Shown in pieces: positions 8,071 through 26,413 of a stretch of 26,441 nucleotides of DNA. Both the position numbers and the translations under genes were made by a program. The stretch is from a virus: IMG/VR virus record IMGVR_UViG_3300042434_000795, positions 1 to 26,441 of that record. The stretch is one strand, 5' to 3'. Each line of letters begins with the position of its first letter. Position 1 is the stretch's first letter. Under the pieces are notes generated by a model. It did not search any database, was not told the origin of the DNA, and saw only the letters and a list, made by a program, of their open reading frames with translations.

Positions 8071-8879
8071 GCGACCGTGATTCCGTACTTTTTGCCGAGG
8101 TAACGTTCGACCGTCTGTCGCCGTGAAGTAGACAAAACGCCTTGATAGAAAAGCATCTCGGCCACGGCTGCTCGCGTGCCGCCACCGGCGTTTCCGATCG
8201 TCATGTTTGTTGAGGCGTTTCCGGTCGCTGCGGCGTTCGTCACCGTGTTCGTCGTGGCGTTGACGGTTCCGTTTAGATATGCCCGCAGCCTGGACGACGC
8301 CGTAGCATTCCCGCAATCGTACGCCACAGAGAGGACGCAATATGCGTTAGCGGTCGCAAAGAAATTATTTGGAATGATCGCCGCCGTCTGAGCCCCTGAA
8401 ACGCCGCGATTGGCAACCGCTAACAAGGCATTGTTTCTGCTCACCGAAACACGGTCATCAAAGGTAAGGCTGATCCCTGTGTTCGCCGATGTATCGCCGT
8501 TGTTCATCAGAAACGGAGCGTATGCGTTTGGGTCAGACGAATCGCCCGGACGAATGACGATGAAAACGGTGCCGCCCGTTGAGTTGTGCAGATAGTTGAA
8601 TGACGCCGTTGACGATCCAAAGACCAGCGACCGAGTCGTCGCGAAGTCGACCGTTCCTCGGCCATTCAGCCCGCTCGCGTTGTAGGCAGGCTGGTTGGCT
8701 GCGAAGCCTTGCGCGGCCGCAGGCGCGCCCGATCCGCTCTTGTCTCGCCACTCGGAGACGTTGCTGCCGTTGAGCGTGATTGTGGACAAGTCGGAGGCGT
8801 CCAGCCAAAGGCCGATGCCTGGAATAGTCCTCGGGTCAAACTGCCGCGCCCTCCCGTAGATCGCCTGCCACCGGCTCAC
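8067..8879 (-). CDS. LamG/concanavalin-like lectin domain protein, probable receptor-binding protein (270 aa)
   Basis: GTG start at 8879 overlaps the fibre gene's stop as GTGA; the frame upstream of this is an antisense-type Arg-rich artefact. The protein is essentially one jelly-roll lectin domain (about residues 22-268): IGLWLDASDLSTITLNGSNVSEWRDKSG, then RGTVDFATTRSLVFGSS, FIVIRPGD, RLRAYLNGT, and the closing block AEMLFYQGVLSTSRRQTVERYLGKKYGI, which is the standard end of such domains. In a phage it most likely binds surface glycans. Its location after a fibre gene supports a receptor-binding role. Base composition here looks less GC-rich than the surrounding genes. Confidence 0.8.
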   Translation of the reverse strand: MSRWQAIYGRARQFDPRTIPGIGLWLDASDLSTITLNGSNVSEWRDKSGSGAPAAAQGFAANQPAYNASGLNGRGTVDFATTRSLVFGSSTASFNYLHNSTGGTVFIVIRPGDSSDPNAYAPFLMNNGDTSANTGISLTFDDRVSVSRNNALLAVANRGVSGAQTAAIIPNNFFATANAYCVLSVAYDCGNATASSRLRAYLNGTVNATTNTVTNAAATGNASTNMTIGNAGGGTRAAVAEMLFYQGVLSTSRRQTVERYLGKKYGITVA

Positions 8880-10225
8880 AGGATCCTCCACCGCGAGATC
8901 GCGCTGGAGTAGGTGAGCACGGCCGAGCCGCCGTCGGCCGGCAGGATGAAGTCTCCGCCGGTCGTGTTGCGGAACCGATTCGCCGCCGTGCTCGATGTCG
9001 ACTCGTGCTTGAGCGTGATCGCCGCCCCGCCGCTGGCGTTCGTGTTGAGCACGAGCCGCATGGCCCCGTCCACCGTCCCGGCCACGAGCCCGGTGAGGTC
9101 GATGGCGGTCGAGCTCGACAACCGGATGATGTCGCACACCCCAGGGGCGTAGTCGTTTTGGCTGGCCGACAGGCTGGACGGCGTGACGATCACCGGCGCG
9201 ATCGCGTCGGCCTGGCCGGTCTGGTGGCTGGACGCATGGCTGGTCGGCGTGCGGGCGTTGGACAGCCGCGAGTCGTTGCCTTCACACACCGTCCCGGCCG
9301 TCGTTCCGTAGGCCACGCCGAGGTTCGTGCGAGCCGCAGATGCCGAGGTCGCTCCGGTGCCGCCGTAATCGACAGCGACGGCCGTGGCTTGCCAAGTCCC
9401 AGTGGTCACAACCCCAGTCGAACTCACCTCGAACAGCGTCGTCGCGCCAATGCCCAAGACAGCGAGTCGCCCAGTAGTGGCCGTCACGCCGCCAGCACCA
9501 GCCGCCATCGTTCCCGCGCTCACGCTGCCGAACGACACGGTTTGGTTGCTCGCGATTTTCGCCGCGGTCACAGCCCCGTCCGCGAGCTTGGCCGTCGTGA
9601 CGCTGCCGTCGGTTGGCGCACGCTGGTCCGTCAGCCGCGAGTCGTTCCCCGCCGCGACCGTCCCGGCCGTCGTGCCAACGTTGAGCGTGGCGGCCCCGCC
9701 GAGGCCAGACACGTCCGCCGCCGCCAGCGTCACCGCCCCCGTCCGCCCCGCCACGCTCTGCACCGGGGCCGCCGCCGCGGCCCGGCCCGTCGTGTGGTAG
9801 AGGTTCGTCGTGCCCTCCGGCACGGCATCGGTCGAGCCCGGGGCCGCCGAAATCTCGATGTACTGGGAGCCACTCCAGCGGAACACCTTCCCGTTGTCGA
9901 TCGTCACGTAGATTTTGCCGGTCTCACCCGTGGCCGGGCGGGCCGCGGCGTTGGCGTACTCGAGCACGTCGTCCACGAAGGACGGCAGCTGCGAGGCCTG
10001 GACCTTGCCGTTCCCGTCCAGTTCAACCTTCTGGTCGAGGGCCGCCTGGAGGCCGACCGTGTCGGCGATGAAGTGGTTGTGGGCCTGCGGCGGAAACGTC
10101 GTTGGCTTGCCGGTGATGCCGGACCACGAGACGTTCGCCCCTTCGGCGAGCGTCACGGTCACCGCACCTCCGGCCGTCACGCTCACGCCGGTGCTGCCGG
10201 CCACCGATACCACAATGTCGCTCAT
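8876..10225 (-). CDS. tail/appendage fibre protein with collagen-like and tail-repeat motifs (449 aa)
   Basis: The N-terminus (MSDIVVSVAGSTGVSVTAGG) is followed by fibre motifs: AHNHFIADTVGLQAALDQK (48-66), QSVAGRTGAVTLAAADVSGL (156-175), AVDYGGTGATSASAARTNLG (284-303), and HASSHQTGQADAI (330-342), all typical of trimeric phage fibres. A 21-residue block recurs (184-204 and 307-327: G-T-T-A-G-T-V-x-x-G-N-D-S-R-L). The C-terminal ~100 residues form a beta-rich tip (ANRFRNTTGGDFILPADGGSAVLTYSS). ATG 10225 has AAGGG upstream. It is likely a shaft linking virion to the LamG protein encoded next. Confidence 0.85.
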   Translation of the reverse strand: MSDIVVSVAGSTGVSVTAGGAVTVTLAEGANVSWSGITGKPTTFPPQAHNHFIADTVGLQAALDQKVELDGNGKVQASQLPSFVDDVLEYANAAARPATGETGKIYVTIDNGKVFRWSGSQYIEISAAPGSTDAVPEGTTNLYHTTGRAAAAAPVQSVAGRTGAVTLAAADVSGLGGAATLNVGTTAGTVAAGNDSRLTDQRAPTDGSVTTAKLADGAVTAAKIASNQTVSFGSVSAGTMAAGAGGVTATTGRLAVLGIGATTLFEVSSTGVVTTGTWQATAVAVDYGGTGATSASAARTNLGVAYGTTAGTVCEGNDSRLSNARTPTSHASSHQTGQADAIAPVIVTPSSLSASQNDYAPGVCDIIRLSSSTAIDLTGLVAGTVDGAMRLVLNTNASGGAAITLKHESTSSTAANRFRNTTGGDFILPADGGSAVLTYSSAISRWRIL

Positions 10226-16811: not shown

Positions 16812-18674
16812 TCAGGCCGTGGCCATCCGGTAGCAGCTCTTCGGCTCGCCCTTGGCGACACCGAAGTCGAAGTAGCCGCGGACCTGGATGCCGAGCGTGT
16901 CGAAGTCCGCCTCGGCCTGCTCCACGACGGGGTTGCGGTTGCCGTTGAGGAACAGCACCTCCATCGCGTTCAGGTCGCCCGGGTTCGCCACGAGCCACCA
17001 GGTGCTCGCGCTCGACAGGTAGACCGACGACACGACCTGATAACGACCGGCCAGCACGTTCGTACTGGGGGCCGCACCGCTCGTGCCGTGGATCAGGGCC
17101 GAGCCCATGAGCTCGGCACCCGCGATCTCCAGCTCCGGCGGGAGCAGCAGCATCGCAGGGGCCACGCTCAGCGGGTTGCCGTCCGCGTCGGTGACCTTCC
17201 GGTAGGCCGACACGGCCGCCTTCAGGCTGGTCAGGCTGAGGGCGTTGCCAGCCCCGGCCGTGGCCCGCTCGAAGTAGGTGGCGTTGGACGCCTGGAACTC
17301 CGTCCAGAAGTTGGTGTTGAACCTCAGAGCCGCACCACGGCCGAGCCGGGTGGGCACCACGGTCAGAGCACCGAGGTCGTCGTTGATGATGTCCCGACGG
17401 CTGATCGCGGAGATCCGGCCGTAGGACTTCGCACCGAACGAACGGGCCTCGTCGGTCGCTTCGGCCGACTTCAGCTCGCCGGCCGGGCCGACTTCCTCGA
17501 ACGTGAACCCGCCGTTCACCCGCACGCCGGTCACCGCCTTGAAGTCGGAGACGGGGCGGATCATCGAGATCCGGTCCCACACCGACTCCACCGAGGTGTA
17601 GCCGTTGAGGAGGAACTTGCCGTAGGCCGTGCCGACGACGTTGGCGATCGAGTGGGTGCTCGATCCGAACGAGGCCCGCAGCACGTCGCGAAGGTTGCCG
17701 TCGGTGAGCTTGTAGGCATCACCCTGGTAGCCGTTCGCCTTCGCGGCCCGCAGGAGCATCTCCTGGAGGCCCATGTTCCGCCGCTTGTGGGCGGCTTCGA
17801 GCGTCCGCTCGCCGAACTGCTTGTCGACGCCGGGCAGGTTGCCGGCGAGGCAGATCGAGGCGACGAGCAGCTCGTCGGTCTCGGCCGGCTTGGCGACGAC
17901 GTGAACCGCCGGAGCGGACGGGCGATCGGCACGAATGTCCGCGAGGGCTTCGGCCTTGACCTCCTTCCGGATCTGCTCGAGCAGCTCGGCCTTGATCGCA
18001 CCCAGGTCCACGGAGGGAGCGGGCGGCGTCACGGCCTCGGGGGCCTTCGCTTCCACGGCGACCTTCGCCGTGGCTTCCGCCGAGGCCTTGACCTCGTCGG
18101 GCTTCTGGGTGGCGTGATCCGCCATGGGGAAACCTCCATCATTCGCTTCCGCAGCGATCGCGGCAGACGTAGCGGCGTCTGCTCCGAAAAGGACGATCGA
18201 CACCTCGCGGAGCGTGCTGGCACGCACCACGCTGATCGGGCCGGCGAACTGGCGGCCGTTCACCTCGACGCTCTCGCCGGCGGCGATGTTCTCGATCCGG
18301 CCGACGTCGGCCCCGATCGACGCCTGGAACCGCCAGCCCTTGCGGGCCAGCGTCACGGCCTTCGCAACCTCTGGGCTCTCGCCGATGACCTCGGTGGCCA
18401 CGGTCAGGTCCGTGCCGCTGTTCACGACATCCGACGCCTGGCCGACGGCGTGGTCGATGTCGTACTGGTGGCCGAGCATCACCGCGATCGGCTGGCTGGT
18501 CGTGTCCATGCCGGCCAGGTCCACGACGAGCGGCGTGCGGCTCCATGCCTGCCGGATGGCCCGGCCGGTGTAGCCCACGAGCGAGAACTTCGGGTTGCCG
18601 CCGCTCTGGCCGTCCGCGAGGATCGGGGCCTCGATGAGCGTTGCTTCGCCGCCGAACGTGATTTTCTGGCTCAC
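16812..18674 (-). CDS. prohead protease-major capsid protein fusion (620 aa)
   Basis: One uninterrupted frame holds two head functions. Residues about 1-175 are a prohead protease of the HK97/herpes assemblin type: LGHQYDIDHAVGQASDVVN (candidate catalytic His69) and RKGWRFQASIGADVG (candidate Ser119), ending in STLREVSIVLFGADAATSA. Residues about 180-260 are Ala/Lys/Glu-rich and coiled (LGAIKAELLEQIRKEVKAEALADIR), a probable scaffold or delta-domain segment. Residues about 265-620 match Mu gpT-like major capsid proteins, with FGAKSYGRISAISRRDIINDDLGALTVVPTRLGRGAA as the hallmark. The GTG start overlaps the portal stop as GTGA. Cleavage by the protease would release the mature shell protein. 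Confidence 0.9.
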   Translation of the reverse strand: MSQKITFGGEATLIEAPILADGQSGGNPKFSLVGYTGRAIRQAWSRTPLVVDLAGMDTTSQPIAVMLGHQYDIDHAVGQASDVVNSGTDLTVATEVIGESPEVAKAVTLARKGWRFQASIGADVGRIENIAAGESVEVNGRQFAGPISVVRASTLREVSIVLFGADAATSAAIAAEANDGGFPMADHATQKPDEVKASAEATAKVAVEAKAPEAVTPPAPSVDLGAIKAELLEQIRKEVKAEALADIRADRPSAPAVHVVAKPAETDELLVASICLAGNLPGVDKQFGERTLEAAHKRRNMGLQEMLLRAAKANGYQGDAYKLTDGNLRDVLRASFGSSTHSIANVVGTAYGKFLLNGYTSVESVWDRISMIRPVSDFKAVTGVRVNGGFTFEEVGPAGELKSAEATDEARSFGAKSYGRISAISRRDIINDDLGALTVVPTRLGRGAALRFNTNFWTEFQASNATYFERATAGAGNALSLTSLKAAVSAYRKVTDADGNPLSVAPAMLLLPPELEIAGAELMGSALIHGTSGAAPSTNVLAGRYQVVSSVYLSSASTWWLVANPGDLNAMEVLFLNGNRNPVVEQAEADFDTLGIQVRGYFDFGVAKGEPKSCYRMATA

Positions 18675-20131
18675 TGGTTCGCCTCCTGGGGCTGGTCGGC
18701 CGGGGCCGGCTGCTGATCGGGCGTCGTGAGGTCGATGCCCAGTTCAGCCGCATACGCCTCCTCGGCGGCGATCTGGCGGAACACCTGCCGCCAGTCCTTG
18801 CCGCGGCGGGCACAGGCTTCCGACCGGCTCACGGTCTTGTTCTCCAGGCCGACGCTCTCGGCGTTGGCCTCCTTGAGCGGGTCGATGTGCTCGTGGCCGT
18901 CCCAGCGCCACCGCCACGTCCACTGATCGCGGGGCGGGAGGCCGTCGGGGATCATGCCGTCCACCACGGCGGCCTCGCCGATCCACCGCTGGAGCAGCGG
19001 GTCGAGGATCACCCGCTCCACGTCCGCCCGTTCGGCGTTCATGTGCTGGCGATACACGAGGTAGTCGCCACGCATCGTGGAGTAGTTCGCCCCGGTCGCG
19101 TCCATCACCGCGACGATGTACGGCATCGACAGGGCGCGGCTGATCTGCATCAGAATCCGCCGCTCAAAGGCGTCGAACGTGCTGGTCGGGTGCTCGGCCC
19201 GCATCTGGGCAACGTCCCACCCCTCGGGAGCCGCCATTGCCATGCCACGCATGATCGGCAGCGTCTCGGCCAGCGGCAGGGCGGCAGCGGTGCCGCTCGC
19301 CGGCATCGTGGTCTTGAAGATCGCGGCGAAGTCGGCGGCCGTCTCCGCAGCGGTCACGACCGCGTACTGGTAGCGGCGGAGCATCGCGAACAGCTCGAGG
19401 GCCGGCACGACCTCGCCGACGCCGCGGTGCTGCCCGGGGCGGGTTGCGTGAAAGTAGTGGTGGACGTAGCGAGCATCGACCCACTTGCCGCCCAGCGTCA
19501 CGCCGAAGTGCAGCGAGCCCGGGTGGTGGTCGAGGAGGAAGTATTCGGACGGGTTGCCGTCGGCATCGAACCGCACGCCGTCGACGGCACCGCCGAACTC
19601 AAACCGGCTTGCCGGGTCGGCGATCATGTCGGCCTCGACCAGCCGGAGATCGAGTTGCACGTTCCGCAGCCGGCGGTTGGTGGTCTGGATGCCGAAGCCG
19701 TCGCCGTCGATCGCCTTCACGCTGCGGAGCGTCCGGAGCTTCTTCGCCAGGTCGATCTCCTGGTGCCACTCGAAGACGTTCTCCTCCACGCGGGCGACGG
19801 CCGACTGATCGGCGTCCGGCCCGCAGTCGAGGAGCAGCGTCGGCCCCTTGCCGACCAGGTCGGTGGCCAGGGTCGCCACCATGCCAGCGAGGTAGCCGTT
19901 GTTCGCGGCCTCGTAGCGGGCACGGGAGCGGAGCGTCCGTCGCACCCACGGCGACAGGGCGGCGTCGGCCGCCATGTGGTCGGCCTGCGACCAGTGGTTC
20001 TTGTTGCCGGGCGTGGTCTGGGCGGCGTCGTACCGTGCCCGGATGAGGTTGGTGACGGCGTGCCGCTGCTTGGCGATTGTCGCCTCCAGCGACCGCCGGG
20101 ACTGCCCGAGGAGGTTGCCGAACAGGCCCAT
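18671..20131 (-). CDS. portal protein, lambda gpB-like (486 aa)
   Basis: Start taken as ATG 20131, which shares one base with the TGA of the gpW-like gene (TGATG); 15 upstream residues in the frame are excluded. Family features: R-x-R-x-R-Y-E-A-A-N-N-G-Y-L-A-G (68-83), then LATDLVGKGPTLL (88-100); CRs around IDGDGFGIQ (141-149); YFHATRPGQHRGVGEV (226-241); TSTFDAFERRILMQISRALSMPY (316-338); and the diagnostic ANYSTMRGDY (348-357). It forms the dodecameric ring for DNA packaging and tail joining. Typical length for this family is about 490-530. Confidence 0.95.
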   Translation of the reverse strand: MGLFGNLLGQSRRSLEATIAKQRHAVTNLIRARYDAAQTTPGNKNHWSQADHMAADAALSPWVRRTLRSRARYEAANNGYLAGMVATLATDLVGKGPTLLLDCGPDADQSAVARVEENVFEWHQEIDLAKKLRTLRSVKAIDGDGFGIQTTNRRLRNVQLDLRLVEADMIADPASRFEFGGAVDGVRFDADGNPSEYFLLDHHPGSLHFGVTLGGKWVDARYVHHYFHATRPGQHRGVGEVVPALELFAMLRRYQYAVVTAAETAADFAAIFKTTMPASGTAAALPLAETLPIMRGMAMAAPEGWDVAQMRAEHPTSTFDAFERRILMQISRALSMPYIVAVMDATGANYSTMRGDYLVYRQHMNAERADVERVILDPLLQRWIGEAAVVDGMIPDGLPPRDQWTWRWRWDGHEHIDPLKEANAESVGLENKTVSRSEACARRGKDWRQVFRQIAAEEAYAAELGIDLTTPDQQPAPADQPQEANQ

Positions 20132-20337
20132 CAGCCGGTCGCCCCTGGGGATTCGATGCGGGCCATCCGCAGACACGCGAACGGCGAGCCGGCGGCGGCG
20201 CGCGAGCGGATCACGAAGTCGGCGGCGGCCACCTGGCGATCGAGTTCATGCTGCTCGACCTCGCCGGCGTCGGTACGTGCCCGGCGCGGCTGCGCAAGAT
20301 TCGCCGCGATCGCGTCGAGGATGTCTTCGTTGGCCAC
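20131..20337 (-). CDS. gpW-like head-tail joining protein (68 aa)
   Basis: GTG start at 20337 with GGAG 7 nt upstream. MANEDILDAIAANLAQPRRARTDAGEVEQHELDRQVAAADFVIRSRAAAGSPFACLRMARIESPGATG matches the size and layout of gpW-type proteins: an N-terminal helix, a short turn (TDAGEVEQH), a second helix and a C-terminal 'LRMARIESPG' strand. Position between terminase and portal, overlapping the portal start, is the usual place for gpW. It plugs the packaged head for tail attachment. Confidence 0.75.
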   Translation of the reverse strand: MANEDILDAIAANLAQPRRARTDAGEVEQHELDRQVAAADFVIRSRAAAGSPFACLRMARIESPGATG

Positions 20338-20806: not shown

Positions 20807-20867
20807 GGCGTTGGAACAATCAGGCGGATAATGGATTATCCACGGGTGACTGGGGGTCAATTACATG

Positions 20868-20876
20868 GTTCTGTGG
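20868..20876 (+). repeat. single R'-type core site: left boundary of cassette array
   Basis: GTTCTGTGG occurs here without the rest of a hairpin site, immediately before CTA (the stop of the reversed first gene). It matches the R' core of the other sites, and the sequence to its left (phage leader of the membrane protein gene) shows no L or R'' box. This is what an attI or a secondary integration target looks like after cassettes enter at G/TT. Confidence 0.6.
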
Positions 20877-21152
20877 CTATCCGACGAGTCTTCTCCAAAA
20901 CCGACAAATCCACGGGCCGTTTACCTCAACGCTCATCTTTGGCGACGCAAGCAACTCGTAGACCCTCACGTTGGCGAGCGTGGCGAAACCGTCGGGCGAC
21001 ACGAGAACCCACTTTCGCGGGTCGCCCTCGGCGTACTCAACCTCAGCCTCAAACGAGCAATCTCCTCGTTGCGTGAGCGTCTTCTTTGTCCAGCCCTGCG
21101 GATCGACCACGCTGTCAAAGTGCTGGCAGATTTCGTGAACCGTGGTGCTCAT
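20877..21152 (-). CDS. cassette 1 protein, unknown (91 aa)
   Basis: MSTTVHEICQHFDSVVDPQGWTKKTLTQRGDCSFEAEVEYAEGDPRKWVLVSPDGFATLANVRVYELLASPKMSVEVNGPWICRFWRRLVG. ATG 21152 has AAAGGG upstream, and the TAG stop is followed directly by CCACAGAAC of the cassette boundary. A mixed alpha/beta small protein with no recognised family; the strand pair CSFEAEVEYAE...KWVLVSPDG suggests a compact fold. The start codon lies about 18 nt beyond the attC-like site 21170-21230. Confidence 0.65.
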   Translation of the reverse strand: MSTTVHEICQHFDSVVDPQGWTKKTLTQRGDCSFEAEVEYAEGDPRKWVLVSPDGFATLANVRVYELLASPKMSVEVNGPWICRFWRRLVG

Positions 21153-21169
21153 GTATCCCTTTCTACGCT

Positions 21170-21230
21170 CACAGAACCAGGCGCTGGAGCGGACGGCCAG
21201 GAGCCGCCGCTCAGCTTCAGCGTTCTGTGG
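21170..21230 (+). repeat. attC-like site 1
   Basis: Layout on the plus strand: R'' CACAGAAC; 5-nt spacer CAGGC; arm GCTG(G)AGCGG(A)CGGC with bulged G and A; short loop; return arm GCCGCCGCTCAGC; 6-nt spacer TTCAGC; R' GTTCTGTGG. The two arms pair fully except for the two extra bases, as in integron attC sites. Total about 61 bp. R' departs from the proteobacterial consensus GTTRRRY. Confidence 0.75.
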
Positions 21231-21515
21231 CTACTTGCCGTCCGCTGGATGGGCCGGAAGCGGCATCCAATGGGTGACGTCTGCGATTTGTCGGACAACG
21301 AGTCCCGGTAGCGTGTGATACCAGCAGCCGTGATACAGTTCCCCAGCGGCCACTACTCCGCGATTGTCTGGCGTTCGCCCTCTATCGGCAACGATTGCGA
21401 CAGGGACGCCGTCTTCCGGCAGCCTCTCCGCCACCGGAATCCAACTATTCAGGCAAGCCGCATGGTTCGCCACAGAACCACGCATTGGAGCAGACCCGGC
21501 ATCTTCCTGTGTCAT
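21231..21515 (-). CDS. cassette 2 protein: DUF551 (94 aa)
   Basis: The ATG at 21515 has AAAGGA 8 nt upstream; the TTG two codons earlier is rejected because the ribosome site would be too close. Domain: SWIPVAERLPEDGVPVAIVAD (about 24-44) and a closing THWMPLPAHP, which is the DUF551 signature (W-I-P-V-x-E-R-L-P ... H-W-M-P-L-P). DUF551 proteins are small, mostly phage-encoded, and of unknown function. The first 16 codons overlap the arm of the attC-like site 21470-21558, so the N-terminus (EDAGSAPMRGS) is partly site-derived. The stop TAG abuts the next boundary. Confidence 0.8.
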   Translation of the reverse strand: MTQEDAGSAPMRGSVANHAACLNSWIPVAERLPEDGVPVAIVADRGRTPDNRGVVAAGELYHGCWYHTLPGLVVRQIADVTHWMPLPAHPADGK

Positions 21516-21558
21516 AGTCAACTTCCTTTCTCGGGCTGCTCAATGCAGCCGTTCTCCG
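21470..21558 (+). repeat. attC-like site 2
   Basis: R'' CCACAGAAC; spacer CACGC (5 nt); arm ATTG(G)AGCAG(A)CCCG; 33-nt loop containing a ribosome site and the ATG of the DUF551 gene; return arm CGGGCTGCTCAAT; spacer GCAGCC (6 nt); R' GTTCTCCG. The stem differs from sites 1 and 4 at many positions, yet pairs perfectly and keeps the bulged G and A at the same places. Its R' belongs to the next cassette and differs from its R'' complement, as expected in an array. Confidence 0.75.
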
Positions 21559-21560
21559 AA

Positions 21561-21791
21561 TCAAACGGCCCCCACGGCCATGACGAACACCCGCCGCTCT
21601 TCAACGGCAGACCAGGCCTCACGGTATTGCCGGAGTGTGTCCTTGTGAACTGCGTCAACGTCGATCATGCAGCAGCCGGCCGCTAGTTGAGCGTTGACGT
21701 GCTGCATGGTGATTTTGACAAGCTCCATCGCGACCACTGCTGGCACGTCCATCGGAGAACCAGCGGACCCGCGATCTTCGCCGTTCGCCAT
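21561..21791 (-). CDS. cassette 3 protein, unknown (76 aa)
   Basis: ATG 21791 has AAGGAGG about 10 nt upstream. MANGEDRGSAGSPMDVPAVVAMELVKITMQHVNAQLAAGCCMIDVDAVHKDTLRQYREAWSAVEERRVFVMAVGAV, a helical protein (LVKITMQHVNAQLAAG; KDTLRQYREAWSAVEE). The N-terminal EDRGSAGSPMD matches EDAGSAPMRGS of cassette 2 with a 9-nt gap, because both are encoded by the R''/L'' arm of an attC-like site. No function known; the longer upstream frame is an unsupported extension into the neighbouring gene. Confidence 0.65.
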   Translation of the reverse strand: MANGEDRGSAGSPMDVPAVVAMELVKITMQHVNAQLAAGCCMIDVDAVHKDTLRQYREAWSAVEERRVFVMAVGAV

Positions 21792-21837
21792 AGCATGGCC
21801 CCTCCTTCGCGGGCCGATCATCTTCCGTGTTCTGTGG
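21752..21837 (+). repeat. attC-like site 3, degenerate (9-nt deletion)
   Basis: Left end CGGAGAACCAGCGGACCCGC lines up with site 2 (CAGAACC then AGCAGACCCGG) after loss of 9 nt from spacer and first stem. The return arm GCGGGCCGATCATC and R' GTTCTGTGG remain. Pairing is kept only for AxCGG(A)CCCGC, including the bulged A. The deletion is a multiple of three and lies inside the cassette 3 ORF. Confidence 0.55.
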
Positions 21838-22170
21838 CTACTTGCGAGCCGTTGGCGGTGCCGGGAGCGGCACCCAGTGAGAACACGGCCCCCAGTCGTC
21901 TTCGTCGCCCCACACCGGACGCATCGCTGGCAGCCCCATGTCATTTCTCGCGCCTTCCCACCGCCCAGACTCAACATCCGTAAAGCCCTCGTTCGGCCCC
22001 AGATCGCAGGTAAACAATACCGTCTCGTCATGTGGCGGCAGCCGCTCCGTCACCGGAATCCAGCGATGCCGTAGTCGCTGAATCTCATTCGCCGCCTCGT
22101 ACATCAAGGCGTGCTGTTCAGCCACCACGGGCAGCGGGCGAGATCGAAGTCGCCGCAAAATGTCATCCAT
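21838..22170 (-). CDS. cassette 4 protein: DUF551 with N-terminal coil (110 aa)
   Basis: ATG 22170 is preceded by AAAGGAG, 7 nt away; the 65 residues upstream in the same frame translate the attC-like site and the neighbouring gene and are rejected. N-terminal helix MDDILRRLRSRPLPVVAEQHALMYEAANEIQRLRHR, then DUF551: RWIPVTERLPPHDETVLFTCDLGP ... SHWVPLPAPP. The 'E-A-A-N-E-I-Q-R-L-R' helix recalls EAADEIERLR in gene 22512-22853 outside the array. It is a diverged paralogue of the cassette 2 protein. TAG directly precedes CCACAGAAC. Confidence 0.8.
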   Translation of the reverse strand: MDDILRRLRSRPLPVVAEQHALMYEAANEIQRLRHRWIPVTERLPPHDETVLFTCDLGPNEGFTDVESGRWEGARNDMGLPAMRPVWGDEDDWGPCSHWVPLPAPPTARK

Positions 22171-22186
22171 CGAAGTCTCCTTTGCG

Positions 22187-22245
22187 CCACAGAACCATTC
22201 GCTGGAGCGGACGGCCATGGGCCGCCGCTCAGCTTCCGCGTTCTC
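22187..22245 (+). repeat. attC-like site 4: right boundary of the array
   Basis: R'' CCACAGAAC; spacer CATTC; arm GCTG(G)AGCGG(A)CGGC; loop; return arm GCCGCCGCTCAGC; spacer TTCCGC; R' GTTCTC, continuing AAAAG. Nearly identical to site 1 across the stem. The R' flank departs from the GTTCTGTGG seen elsewhere and runs into the stop of the gene at 22244, so this junction marks where cassette DNA meets ancestral phage DNA. Confidence 0.75.
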
Positions 22246-22519
22246 AAAAGAGCCGCTCCAGCAAACAACGGAGTGTGTGTATGTGGTGGTAGTCCTTGGG
22301 ATACCACCGGCCTTCGTCGCAAGCCTCGCGGATCGCCTCCCGCTCCTCGTCGGTGAGCGTGGCATCCAGCGTCACAGTCACGTTGCCGTCGCACACCGAC
22401 AGCGTGGCGTCCTGCTCCGCGAGTCGGCGGATGGCCAACTCCAACGTCGCGATCTTGATGCGGTCGGCAACGACAGCGTGCCGCAGCCAGTCGGCGTTAT
22501 CGATCGGATCGTCAGCCAT
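22244..22519 (-). CDS. small phage protein with LTDEERE and TLRCLLERL motifs (91 aa)
   Basis: MADDPIDNADWLRHAVVADRIKIATLELAIRRLAEQDATLSVCDGNVTVTLDATLTDEEREAIREACDEGRWYPKDYHHIHTLRCLLERLF. A coiled first half is followed by LTDEEREAIREAC and a terminal HTLRCLLERL, motifs seen in small uncharacterised genes of planctomycete-type phages. The start overlaps the previous stop by 8 nt. The TGA stop falls in the R' core of attC-like site 4 and would be kept if the cassettes were removed. Function unknown. Confidence 0.7.
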   Translation of the reverse strand: MADDPIDNADWLRHAVVADRIKIATLELAIRRLAEQDATLSVCDGNVTVTLDATLTDEEREAIREACDEGRWYPKDYHHIHTLRCLLERLF

Positions 22520-24280: not shown

Positions 24281-26413
24281 CTATCGGCCGAGTTTAGCCA
24301 GCAATTCCGCCCGCCTGGCGGCCATCTGCTCCGCGGTGATGACGCGGGCCGGGGCCGCCGGCGCACCATCGGCACCGATCGCCGACACGCCGGAGTAGCT
24401 CGCCGCCACCGCCGCCCCGATCAGGCAGTCCCACAGGTGGTTATCCCTGCCGGGGATCAGCCGCCACTCATCCACCACTCGCTGCCGGCTTTCCACGCGG
24501 ACCGGCACCTCGCTCGACAGTTGCTCGGCAAGCATGTCGTGCTCGCCGGCGTGGATCGTCAGCCCTTGCGGGTCGCCGACCGGCAGTTTGACGCGGGCGG
24601 CCACGAACGTCTTCCAGGCGTTCGTGTCGTAGAGGATGTGCCGCTGCCGCTGGATGGTGCTCGTCCGCCAGTTGGCCCCGATCCGTTCGCCGCGGTCGGG
24701 GGCCTTGTCGCTGATCGTCTGCCCGCTGGCCCCCACGAAGCGGCCGTGGGTCGGCAGCACCCGCGGCCCCCACCGGGAGCGGCGGGCGAAGTCTCTGACC
24801 ACGCCCTGCGACTGTGCCCAATTCGCATCGATGCACAGCTGGCCCACGCGGAGGACGGCATCGTCCGTCTCGCGGGTGAACTCCCGCTCGAGCAGATCGC
24901 CGGCCAGGGCCTCGAGGCCGGCCAGGATCGCCGCTTCGACGTTTGCCCCATGGGCGCGGGACAGCGTCCGCTTGGCATCCCGCAGTGTAAAGTAGGCCCG
25001 GCTCTGGTCCGGGTACGTTCCAAAGGCCACGACGTGCCCGCGGAACTGGTGGCCCCAGGCCACGACGGCCCAGTAGAGCAGCTCCTTCTGGACGTCCACG
25101 AACGCCGTGAGCGTGTCGAGGCCGCGCGGCACGGTCCAGCGCGGGACGTTGATGATGCGGTTCCGGACGTCCTCCGGCTTCAGACCAGCGTTGGCCGCTT
25201 CGTTCTTCAGCGGTTGCTGCTGGAACTCGCTCGCGAACACGTCCTCGCCGTCGTCGATGAGCGCGTTGTAGGCGTGCTGGATCGCGGAGTGCTCGGAATC
25301 CGGGTCGAAGCATGACTCCCACGAGACCACGCACCCTTCGTCCATGTCGGCCCGGTTGCCCAGGTAGAACTCGTTGGCTTCCGCCTTCGCTCGCTCCTGG
25401 TCGCCGATGACGTCCCGCGAGAACGTCCGCCGGATGGAGGCATAGCGGTCCATCCACAGATCCTCGTGCCGTTTCGACCACGCCCGGACCATCGGGATCC
25501 GCTCACACTGCCAGCCCGGCGTGCGGAGCAGCTCGTCCACCATGTCATCAACCTCGATCACGGTGGCGTTGACGACGCACGCCATGGTCGTGCGGTGGCC
25601 CGCGAGTTTCAGCACCGACTTCTTCAGGATGTCGAGCCGGGCCTTGCACTGCACCGGCGACTTCGCCGATTCGCGGGTCTGCGGGTCGTCCACGATCGTG
25701 AAGTCGGGCCGCAGCTGCCGGCCGTCCGGGGCCTTGTGGCGGAGGCCGAGGATCGACGCCGTCAGTCCCTTCGACACGATGATCGACCCGGCCGACTTGC
25801 TCCCGTCGATGGACGGCAGCACGAGCGTGTCCTGCTTCCACTGGATGTGGGTCCGCTTGCCACCGCACGTCTGGGAGTTGCACCGCTGCGGCTTGCCTTC
25901 GAGTGCCCGCACCGCGTGGCAGGCCTCGGGGAAGTCTTCGTAGAGCAGATCGTTGTCGGACAACTCCGTCTTGATCGAGGTGATCGCCTTGTCGGCCAGC
26001 CCGGCCTCGGCCGCGAAGATGGCGACGAACTTTCGGTGGCCGTAGAGCGTGGCCCAGAGCAGGGCGTTCTCCGAGATCGTCGACTTGGCGAACCCGCGGT
26101 AGACGGCGTTGCAGAATCGGCCGCCGCCGATCAGGCAGCCTTCGATTCGGGCGATCACGCGGCGATGGTCATCCGAGAATGGCGACATCCCGGTGGAGAA
26201 CGGGAAGTAGGTGATCAGGAACCGCTCCAGGTCGTGCTCGCACGCGGCCCGGCGTTCCGGGTTGGCGCACTTCGGCACCTCGCCGATGTCGCTTCCGGCC
26301 CGCGTGCGGGCGCGGGACCGCTCCAGGGCAGCCTTTCGGTTGGCTTCAGCCTGGCGTTTTTGGTCGTCGTCCGTGTGCGAAACGGCCCCAGGAACTGCGG
26401 GTTTTCGGGGCAT
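24281..26413 (-). CDS. terminase large subunit (710 aa)
   Basis: Motor domain: degenerate Walker A YRGFAKST (105-112) and Walker B FTIVDDP (238-244). Between them sits a Cys-containing segment (Cys178, Cys183). The nuclease domain has three expected acids in an RNase H-like order: FVDVQK (Asp440), CIDANW (Asp529) and DNHLWDC (Asp662), the last in the 'N-x-x-x-D' form seen in GpA-like terminases. The protein packages and cuts DNA at the portal. ATG 26413 is the first codon near the window edge, with no clear ribosome site. The long N-terminal ~55 residues are charged. A small terminase subunit is not seen; it may lie beyond the right end. Confidence 0.93.
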   Translation of the reverse strand: MPRKPAVPGAVSHTDDDQKRQAEANRKAALERSRARTRAGSDIGEVPKCANPERRAACEHDLERFLITYFPFSTGMSPFSDDHRRVIARIEGCLIGGGRFCNAVYRGFAKSTISENALLWATLYGHRKFVAIFAAEAGLADKAITSIKTELSDNDLLYEDFPEACHAVRALEGKPQRCNSQTCGGKRTHIQWKQDTLVLPSIDGSKSAGSIIVSKGLTASILGLRHKAPDGRQLRPDFTIVDDPQTRESAKSPVQCKARLDILKKSVLKLAGHRTTMACVVNATVIEVDDMVDELLRTPGWQCERIPMVRAWSKRHEDLWMDRYASIRRTFSRDVIGDQERAKAEANEFYLGNRADMDEGCVVSWESCFDPDSEHSAIQHAYNALIDDGEDVFASEFQQQPLKNEAANAGLKPEDVRNRIINVPRWTVPRGLDTLTAFVDVQKELLYWAVVAWGHQFRGHVVAFGTYPDQSRAYFTLRDAKRTLSRAHGANVEAAILAGLEALAGDLLEREFTRETDDAVLRVGQLCIDANWAQSQGVVRDFARRSRWGPRVLPTHGRFVGASGQTISDKAPDRGERIGANWRTSTIQRQRHILYDTNAWKTFVAARVKLPVGDPQGLTIHAGEHDMLAEQLSSEVPVRVESRQRVVDEWRLIPGRDNHLWDCLIGAAVAASYSGVSAIGADGAPAAPARVITAEQMAARRAELLAKLGR

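Follow-up and report, generated by a model that had tools for sequence, protein, structure and literature searches.

Integrons are usually treated as bacterial gene-capture platforms, and the published phage cases appear incidental. The closest described systems are the CALINs of phage genomes, for which Qi et al. (2023; PMC9892861) showed that attC sites of virulent phages are IntI1 substrates; the 17 cases described there are scattered, their cassettes are described as normally oriented or mixed, and the strings 'Planctomyc' and 'opposite' are absent from the main text. T and C extrahelical bases on one side of an attC site are functional, work well with several IntIs and are often favored (PMC3053210). 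Our search of the open literature turned up no description of attI arrays that phages carry without intI, of the planctomycete phage group described here or of systematic gene inversion. Like the phage CALINs, the window (the whole stretch of DNA analyzed here, 26,441 bp) is a phage sequence in which attC sites are clustered without intI. It contains at least two attC sites with no neighboring intI, as a CALIN does, and lacks the intI in cis of a complete integron as judged by PF00589, which had no match in the record, and by TIGR02249.

The window, a tailed-phage contig, corresponds to one whole IMG/VR record, although the contig may be incomplete. Its minus strand carries a tailed-phage structural module with terminase, portal, protease-head fusion and tape measure genes. 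The cassette array lies between the genes for the terminase large subunit (24281..26413, minus strand; phrog_38 and phrog_15) and the portal protein (18671..20176, minus strand; phrog_21). The next gene of the module (16812..18674, minus strand; phrog_4523 and phrog_133) is a single ORF that appears to fuse the head maturation protease with the major head protein. A small flank gene (22244..22519, minus strand; LTDEER...LLERLF) ends at the array with the stop TGA-GAAC. Its protein family, LTDEERxAI...LRGLLERL, was found in many cassettes, where it makes up cassette cluster C0 (21 contigs), as well as in fixed flank genes, and domain swapping is suspected. An Rfam search gave no meaningful match, the array DNA had no match among the annotated phages of INPHARED, and the relatives of the portal protein in that collection were all below 60% identity.

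Four segments between the terminase and portal genes were bounded exactly like integron cassettes, with R boxes at 20868, 21172/21222, 21473/21551, 21755/21829 and 22190/22240. The attC loops were too variable for alignment, and sites were detected with our own structural scan, which was controlled with reversed sequences and resampling. The strict pattern comprised AAC, a spacer, a stem in which one arm has two bulges of a single base each, a second spacer and GTT. Over all 26,441 bp, it gave exactly three matches (21175-21224, 21476-21553 and 22193-22242), and the mirrored arrangement gave none; Markov resamples of the region contained no match in 299 of 300 trials and one match in the remaining trial. 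An earlier note on this DNA had described four hairpins of one architecture. The strict scan and the folds bore this out for sites 1, 2 and 4, where the stems form as claimed with a bulged G and A on the left arm of the plus strand (C and T on the other strand), but site 3 proved to have a degenerate stem. At this site (21753-21834), the two R boxes are kept and the stem is partial, with CCCGCG/CGCGGG and a single bulge; the outer stem and the second bulge are lacking, and the site was missed by the strict scan. Sites 1, 2 and 4 are textbook attC sites; thus, three of the four window sites form the R''-L''-L'-R' imperfect palindrome, one arm of which carries two extrahelical bases. The window R boxes (CAGAAC/GTTCTG) deviate from the consensus RYYYAAC/GTTRRRY while keeping the AAC/GTT core, and this consensus is common but not a strict requirement. 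R boxes reading GCCTAAC/CACCTAAC were present in the relatives L014 and L068, with perfect GCCTAAC/GTTAGGC boxes in L014.

Cassette a (20869..21222, plus strand, which is the attC top-strand sense) extends from G^TT to G^TT with the ends TTCTGTGG and CACAGAAC. It holds a 91-aa gene with no family match (20877..21152, minus strand), the stop codon of which adjoins CCACAGAAC, and attC 1 (21170..21227, plus strand), a strict-scan site that reads CAGAAC, 5 nt, GCTGgAGCGGaCGGC..GCCGCCGCTCAGC, 6 nt and GTTCTG. Cassette b (21223..21551, plus strand) has R-box boundaries and encodes a DUF551 (PF04448) protein (21231..21515, minus strand), whose Shine-Dalgarno (SD) sequence and start codon lie within the long loop of attC 2 (21471..21556, plus strand; strict scan). 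The attC/leader region of this cassette (~78 nt) matched many phage contigs with other gene bodies at 88-94%. In cassette c (21552..21829, plus strand), a 76-aa gene with no family match (21561..21791, minus strand) starts within the loop of the degenerate attC 3 (21753..21834, plus strand), which folded with its R boxes and partial stem only. Cassette d (21830..22240, plus strand), which has a whole-length counterpart in the relative L004, encodes a 110-aa DUF551 protein (21838..22170, minus strand), for which a second possible in-frame start, at 22218, lies in the loop of attC 4. This final array site (22188..22245, plus strand; strict scan) has its R' box completed by the flank (GTTCTCAAAA).

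The complementarity between the two ends of each segment, also pointed out in the earlier note, was real for cassettes a to d, being TTCTGTGG/CCACAGAA in a, b and d and the segment-specific pair TTCTCCGA/TCGGAGAA in c; because it is symmetric, it cannot fix the top strand. The polarity was settled by the side of the bulges, by the contrast between a solitary R box at 20868 and a hairpin at 22240, by L004 and by the host arrays bearing intI. The bulge side, the flanks, L004 and the host arrays ruled out the minus strand as the top strand, an assignment in which the ORFs would follow the attC direction.

The array starts on the portal side with an attI-like recipient site (20820..20868, plus strand; GGATAATGGATTATCC...GGGGGTCAATTACATGG^TT), whose predicted recombination point lies between G20868 and T20869. 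It consists of a lone R box without a hairpin and is conserved in relatives with different cassettes; the same variant, AACCATGTAATTGACCCC..., was also found in L045, L046, L050, L071 and L220. Portal-side array ends fell into a few conserved families, and approximately 40 phage array ends shared AACCAGTGTTTCTGCGG..CC..ATAAC...ATAAC. We built an attI HMM from 41 phage array ends, none of them of the window family, and it detected host attI. The 10 best of the 46 intI-centered loci all matched it at 14-264 bp beyond the 3' end of intI and in the attI orientation, with a best E-value of 4e-6. This HMM, which represents the commoner phage attI, did not detect the window variant, and an HMM of the window family found no convincing match in the host loci. 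Homologues of attI are evident in the related phage arrays at the sequence level, and the window site is a putative attI assigned by position, conservation and similarity only.

The four window genes were all antisense to the attC top strand. Using a codon model trained on the window phage, which left many segments undecided, we obtained antisense-to-sense ratios of 97:1 in phages versus 1:13 in hosts (Fisher p = 6e-15). The corresponding ratios by longest ORF were 85:11 and 2:24; this count was redone with the codon model because antisense ORFs in GC-rich DNA had partly spoiled it. The stop codon lay -3 to 10 nt from the R'' box in 39 of the 55 decided cassettes, and in 24 of these 55 the SD sequence and start codon were inside attC, with leader peptides such as MNTDNTQGGAEPSPASAGS.

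A portal search yielded 37 loci for comparison within the phage family. In L004, the flanking DNA was ~90% identical to that of the window, and cassette d was aligned from boundary to boundary (1-411 of 411 nt, 96.4%), with differing neighbors: the same terminase-side cassette d was followed by two different cassettes, and homology to the window ended at the R boxes at 21829 and ~20868. The segment-specific ends covaried, reading GTTATGCC...GGCATAAC in L004, GTTAGGC...GCCTAAC in L014 and GTTAGGTGC...GCACCTAAC in L068. Other arrays occupied the same place in L009, L010, L013, L014, L019, L022, L023, L034 and L035, and the more distantly related L205, whose portal is 56% identical, carried an attI of the common type between terminase and portal. 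By eye, no array was seen in L017, L021 and L024; where the array would be in L017, a gene resembling dCMP deaminase by eye was present (8826-9326). Some intragenic chimeras of cassette genes were found, as between cassette d and L009. We also observed two-gene cassettes with a probable promoter of their own (TTGCCT..TATACT) and a small ribbon-helix-helix-like gene (L013:1042-1695 and L009:5610-6310). They look like toxin-antitoxin or addiction cassettes; their second gene had no Pfam match. Two window-family relatives encoded XerC/D-like tyrosine recombinases of 317-320 aa (L251:1117-2070 and L249:434-1396). As IntI candidates they were rejected, with 21.9 bits or no match against a cut-off of 265, and they are probably lysogeny integrases.

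Two attC patterns of ~20 nt each matched >120 and 117 stretches of IMG/VR, in contigs of up to 205 kb; because most viral loci were gathered by attC motif, their prevalence is no fair sample. Several contigs at least belonged to other kinds of phages. L050 encodes a phrog_9 terminase and a phrog_12 portal and showed no similarity to the window terminase, and L101 and L173 encode a processivity factor. Across 255 viral loci (2.33 Mb, overlapping copies counted), the structural scan detected 385 sites versus 13 in the reversed-sequence control, and 350 of the 385 had T/C bulges. Among 167 distinct viral segments, the ends matched within a segment at 4.52 of 6 variable positions, compared with 2.97 after permutation (maximum over 2000 permutations, 3.25) and 3.04 across the adjacent hairpin. 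Such within-segment pairing is the signature expected of units exchanged at G^TT, unlike a conserved RNA hairpin, and the homology to relatives breaks at the same point. Cassette-level matching replaced a raw HSP-end analysis that was too noisy. It gave 113 cassette-contig matches, some pairs being counted from both sides; neither neighbor was common in 75, one in 7 and both in 31, and the 75 matches with neither neighbor in common were mostly alignments of the whole unit at 85-100% identity. One shared cassette (cluster C4, in L030 and L123, 93% nucleotide identity, different neighbors) encodes a Dam-like DNA adenine methyltransferase with a weak PF05869 match, which is possible anti-restriction cargo.

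A genome scan with the attC pattern revealed 28 loci, mostly in Planctomycetota MAGs. IntI scored above the cut-off in 15 of 27 genomes carrying the scanned attC loci and in 50 of 294 sampled Planctomycetota; in the 50 viral contigs carrying the window attC type, none exceeded the TIGR02249 cut-off. Sites of the window type stood beside intI in L309 (14 sites) and L319 (13 sites), as well as in L310 and L312, and all host arrays examined had attI and intI on the side predicted from the hairpin asymmetry. L311 is a chromosomal contig (ABC-F, rhodanese, ROK kinase) with a full IntI, and the cassettes adjoining its attI were of the phage type and inverted. The first holds an antisense gene that ends TAGCCACAGAAC at attI and is DUF551-like by eye (an 81-aa ORF without a Pfam match), and a second inverted cassette follows. 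intI is thus present in likely hosts, and we infer planctomycete hosts from the MAGs and the shared sites.

The central claim of the earlier note, integron-type cassettes in a tailed phage, was upheld by the attC structure with cassette-specific end pairing, by exact breakpoints against relatives, by cassettes common to unrelated contigs and by the same attC family adjoining intI on Planctomycetota chromosomes, where the note had suggested looking. The two patterns it had named as counter-evidence were absent: related phages carried different genes with hairpins of their own, not the same genes without hairpins, and the hairpins lay at cassette boundaries in arrays, not scattered genome-wide in a REP/MITE-like manner. 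Its proposal of a single host-to-phage delivery gave way to a phage locus that is recurrent and variable and has an attI-like site at one end, and its view that such cassettes are rare in phages does not hold in this group, given the IMG/VR stretches matched by the attC patterns.

The likely explanation, in our view, is a phage integron that lacks an integrase of its own and is operated in trans by the host's IntI. Its dedicated site, located between the terminase and portal genes, would comprise an attI-like recipient on the portal side and a cassette array, each cassette being a TT...G unit with one small gene and one attC. What is established about integrons, namely the use of the attC bottom strand and the role of extrahelical bases, implies that IntI could act on these sites. 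A planctomycete host would supply the integron integrase; taking the bottom strand of attC in its folded form, the enzyme would recombine it with other attCs or with the phage attI, so that cassettes may be exchanged between phages and host integrons. The genes, antisense to the attC top strand, point toward attI and along the direction of phage transcription and would therefore be read by phage transcription entering from the terminase side; with the start codon often inside attC, an attC arm would then be translated as a short leader. The cassette boundaries, attC structure, cassette sharing and reversed polarity can be read from the DNA itself, and the acting enzyme, its current activity, the expression logic and the host identity are deduced. 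With less confidence, we also favor a broader reading, in which planctomycete phages keep integrase-less integrons with attI sites of their own and a private pool of inverted cassettes that would be moved by host IntI from one phage genome to another during infection, read only on the phage side and silent in a host integron.

We weighed this explanation against four others. The absence of an integron integrase from the phage contigs tested, the degenerate site 3 and the intragenic chimeras of some cassette genes (cassette d versus L009) would suit a relic CALIN, which entered long ago from host integrons and is now subject only to inheritance and ordinary phage mosaicism. We regard such a relic as improbable in view of near-identical, boundary-exact cassettes in contigs with unrelated neighbors, attI homologues conserved in dozens of arrays, folding and bulges intact at most sites, and a host attI occupied by phage-type cassettes (L311). 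Somewhat less probable again is homologous recombination between conserved attC hairpins or leaders that swaps gene bodies in place of IntI. Strand exchange at G^TT is required to account for ends that pair inside a segment but fail to pair over the hairpin; cassettes with a precise G^TT edge are common to single-cassette arrays and to unrelated phages, and the attI-side ends offer no hairpin homology. On the other side, the ~78-nt attC and start region is highly conserved despite different gene bodies, and one (7) or both (31) neighbors were shared in part of the 113 matches.

A phage-encoded tyrosine recombinase might work the array instead of host IntI, and enzymes of 317-320 aa do occur in two window-family relatives, L249 and L251. 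They score far below the IntI cut-off, are present in some contigs only and resemble phage integrases (phrog_1), and the attC and attI sites fit host IntI as partners; we therefore give this explanation little credence. We give almost none to repeated RNA hairpins, translational operators or REP/MITE-like elements that precede small genes and have no role in recombination. In favor of that idea, 24 of the 55 decided cassettes have their SD sequence and start codon within a hairpin loop; segment-specific end pairing, attI homology and the same hairpins with canonical genes in intI-linked host arrays speak against it.

If the host-driven phage integron is true, phages would be stable participants in integron recombination, with host-powered shuffling of their accessory genes, which would explain why small phage genes turn over fast in this group and would provide a direct route for cassette traffic between viruses and chromosomes. 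It would also yield a testable rule, namely that cassette gene direction is set by the location of the promoter and not by attC.

In comparison with published phage CALINs, the new elements are a phage locus dedicated to cassettes, which has an attI or attI-like site of its own, and systematically antisense genes. Unlike the cases in PMC9892861, the locus recurs in a large number of phages, both related and unrelated; its arrays have attI homologues and inverted genes and share a cassette pool with Planctomycetota. The sedentary chromosomal integrons of Planctomycetota (L309, L310, L312 and L319) have the same attC family, attI architecture and attC-attI polarity; however, they contain intI and canonical sense genes, whereas the phage arrays have antisense genes and no intI. 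With mobile class 1 integrons, the phage arrays share the folded-strand attC logic, the G^TT cut and an attI or attI-like site at one end. They differ in having neither an integrase nor a Pc promoter in cis, in R boxes that are mostly GTTCTG/GTTCTC, and in a second extrahelical base that is C, not G.
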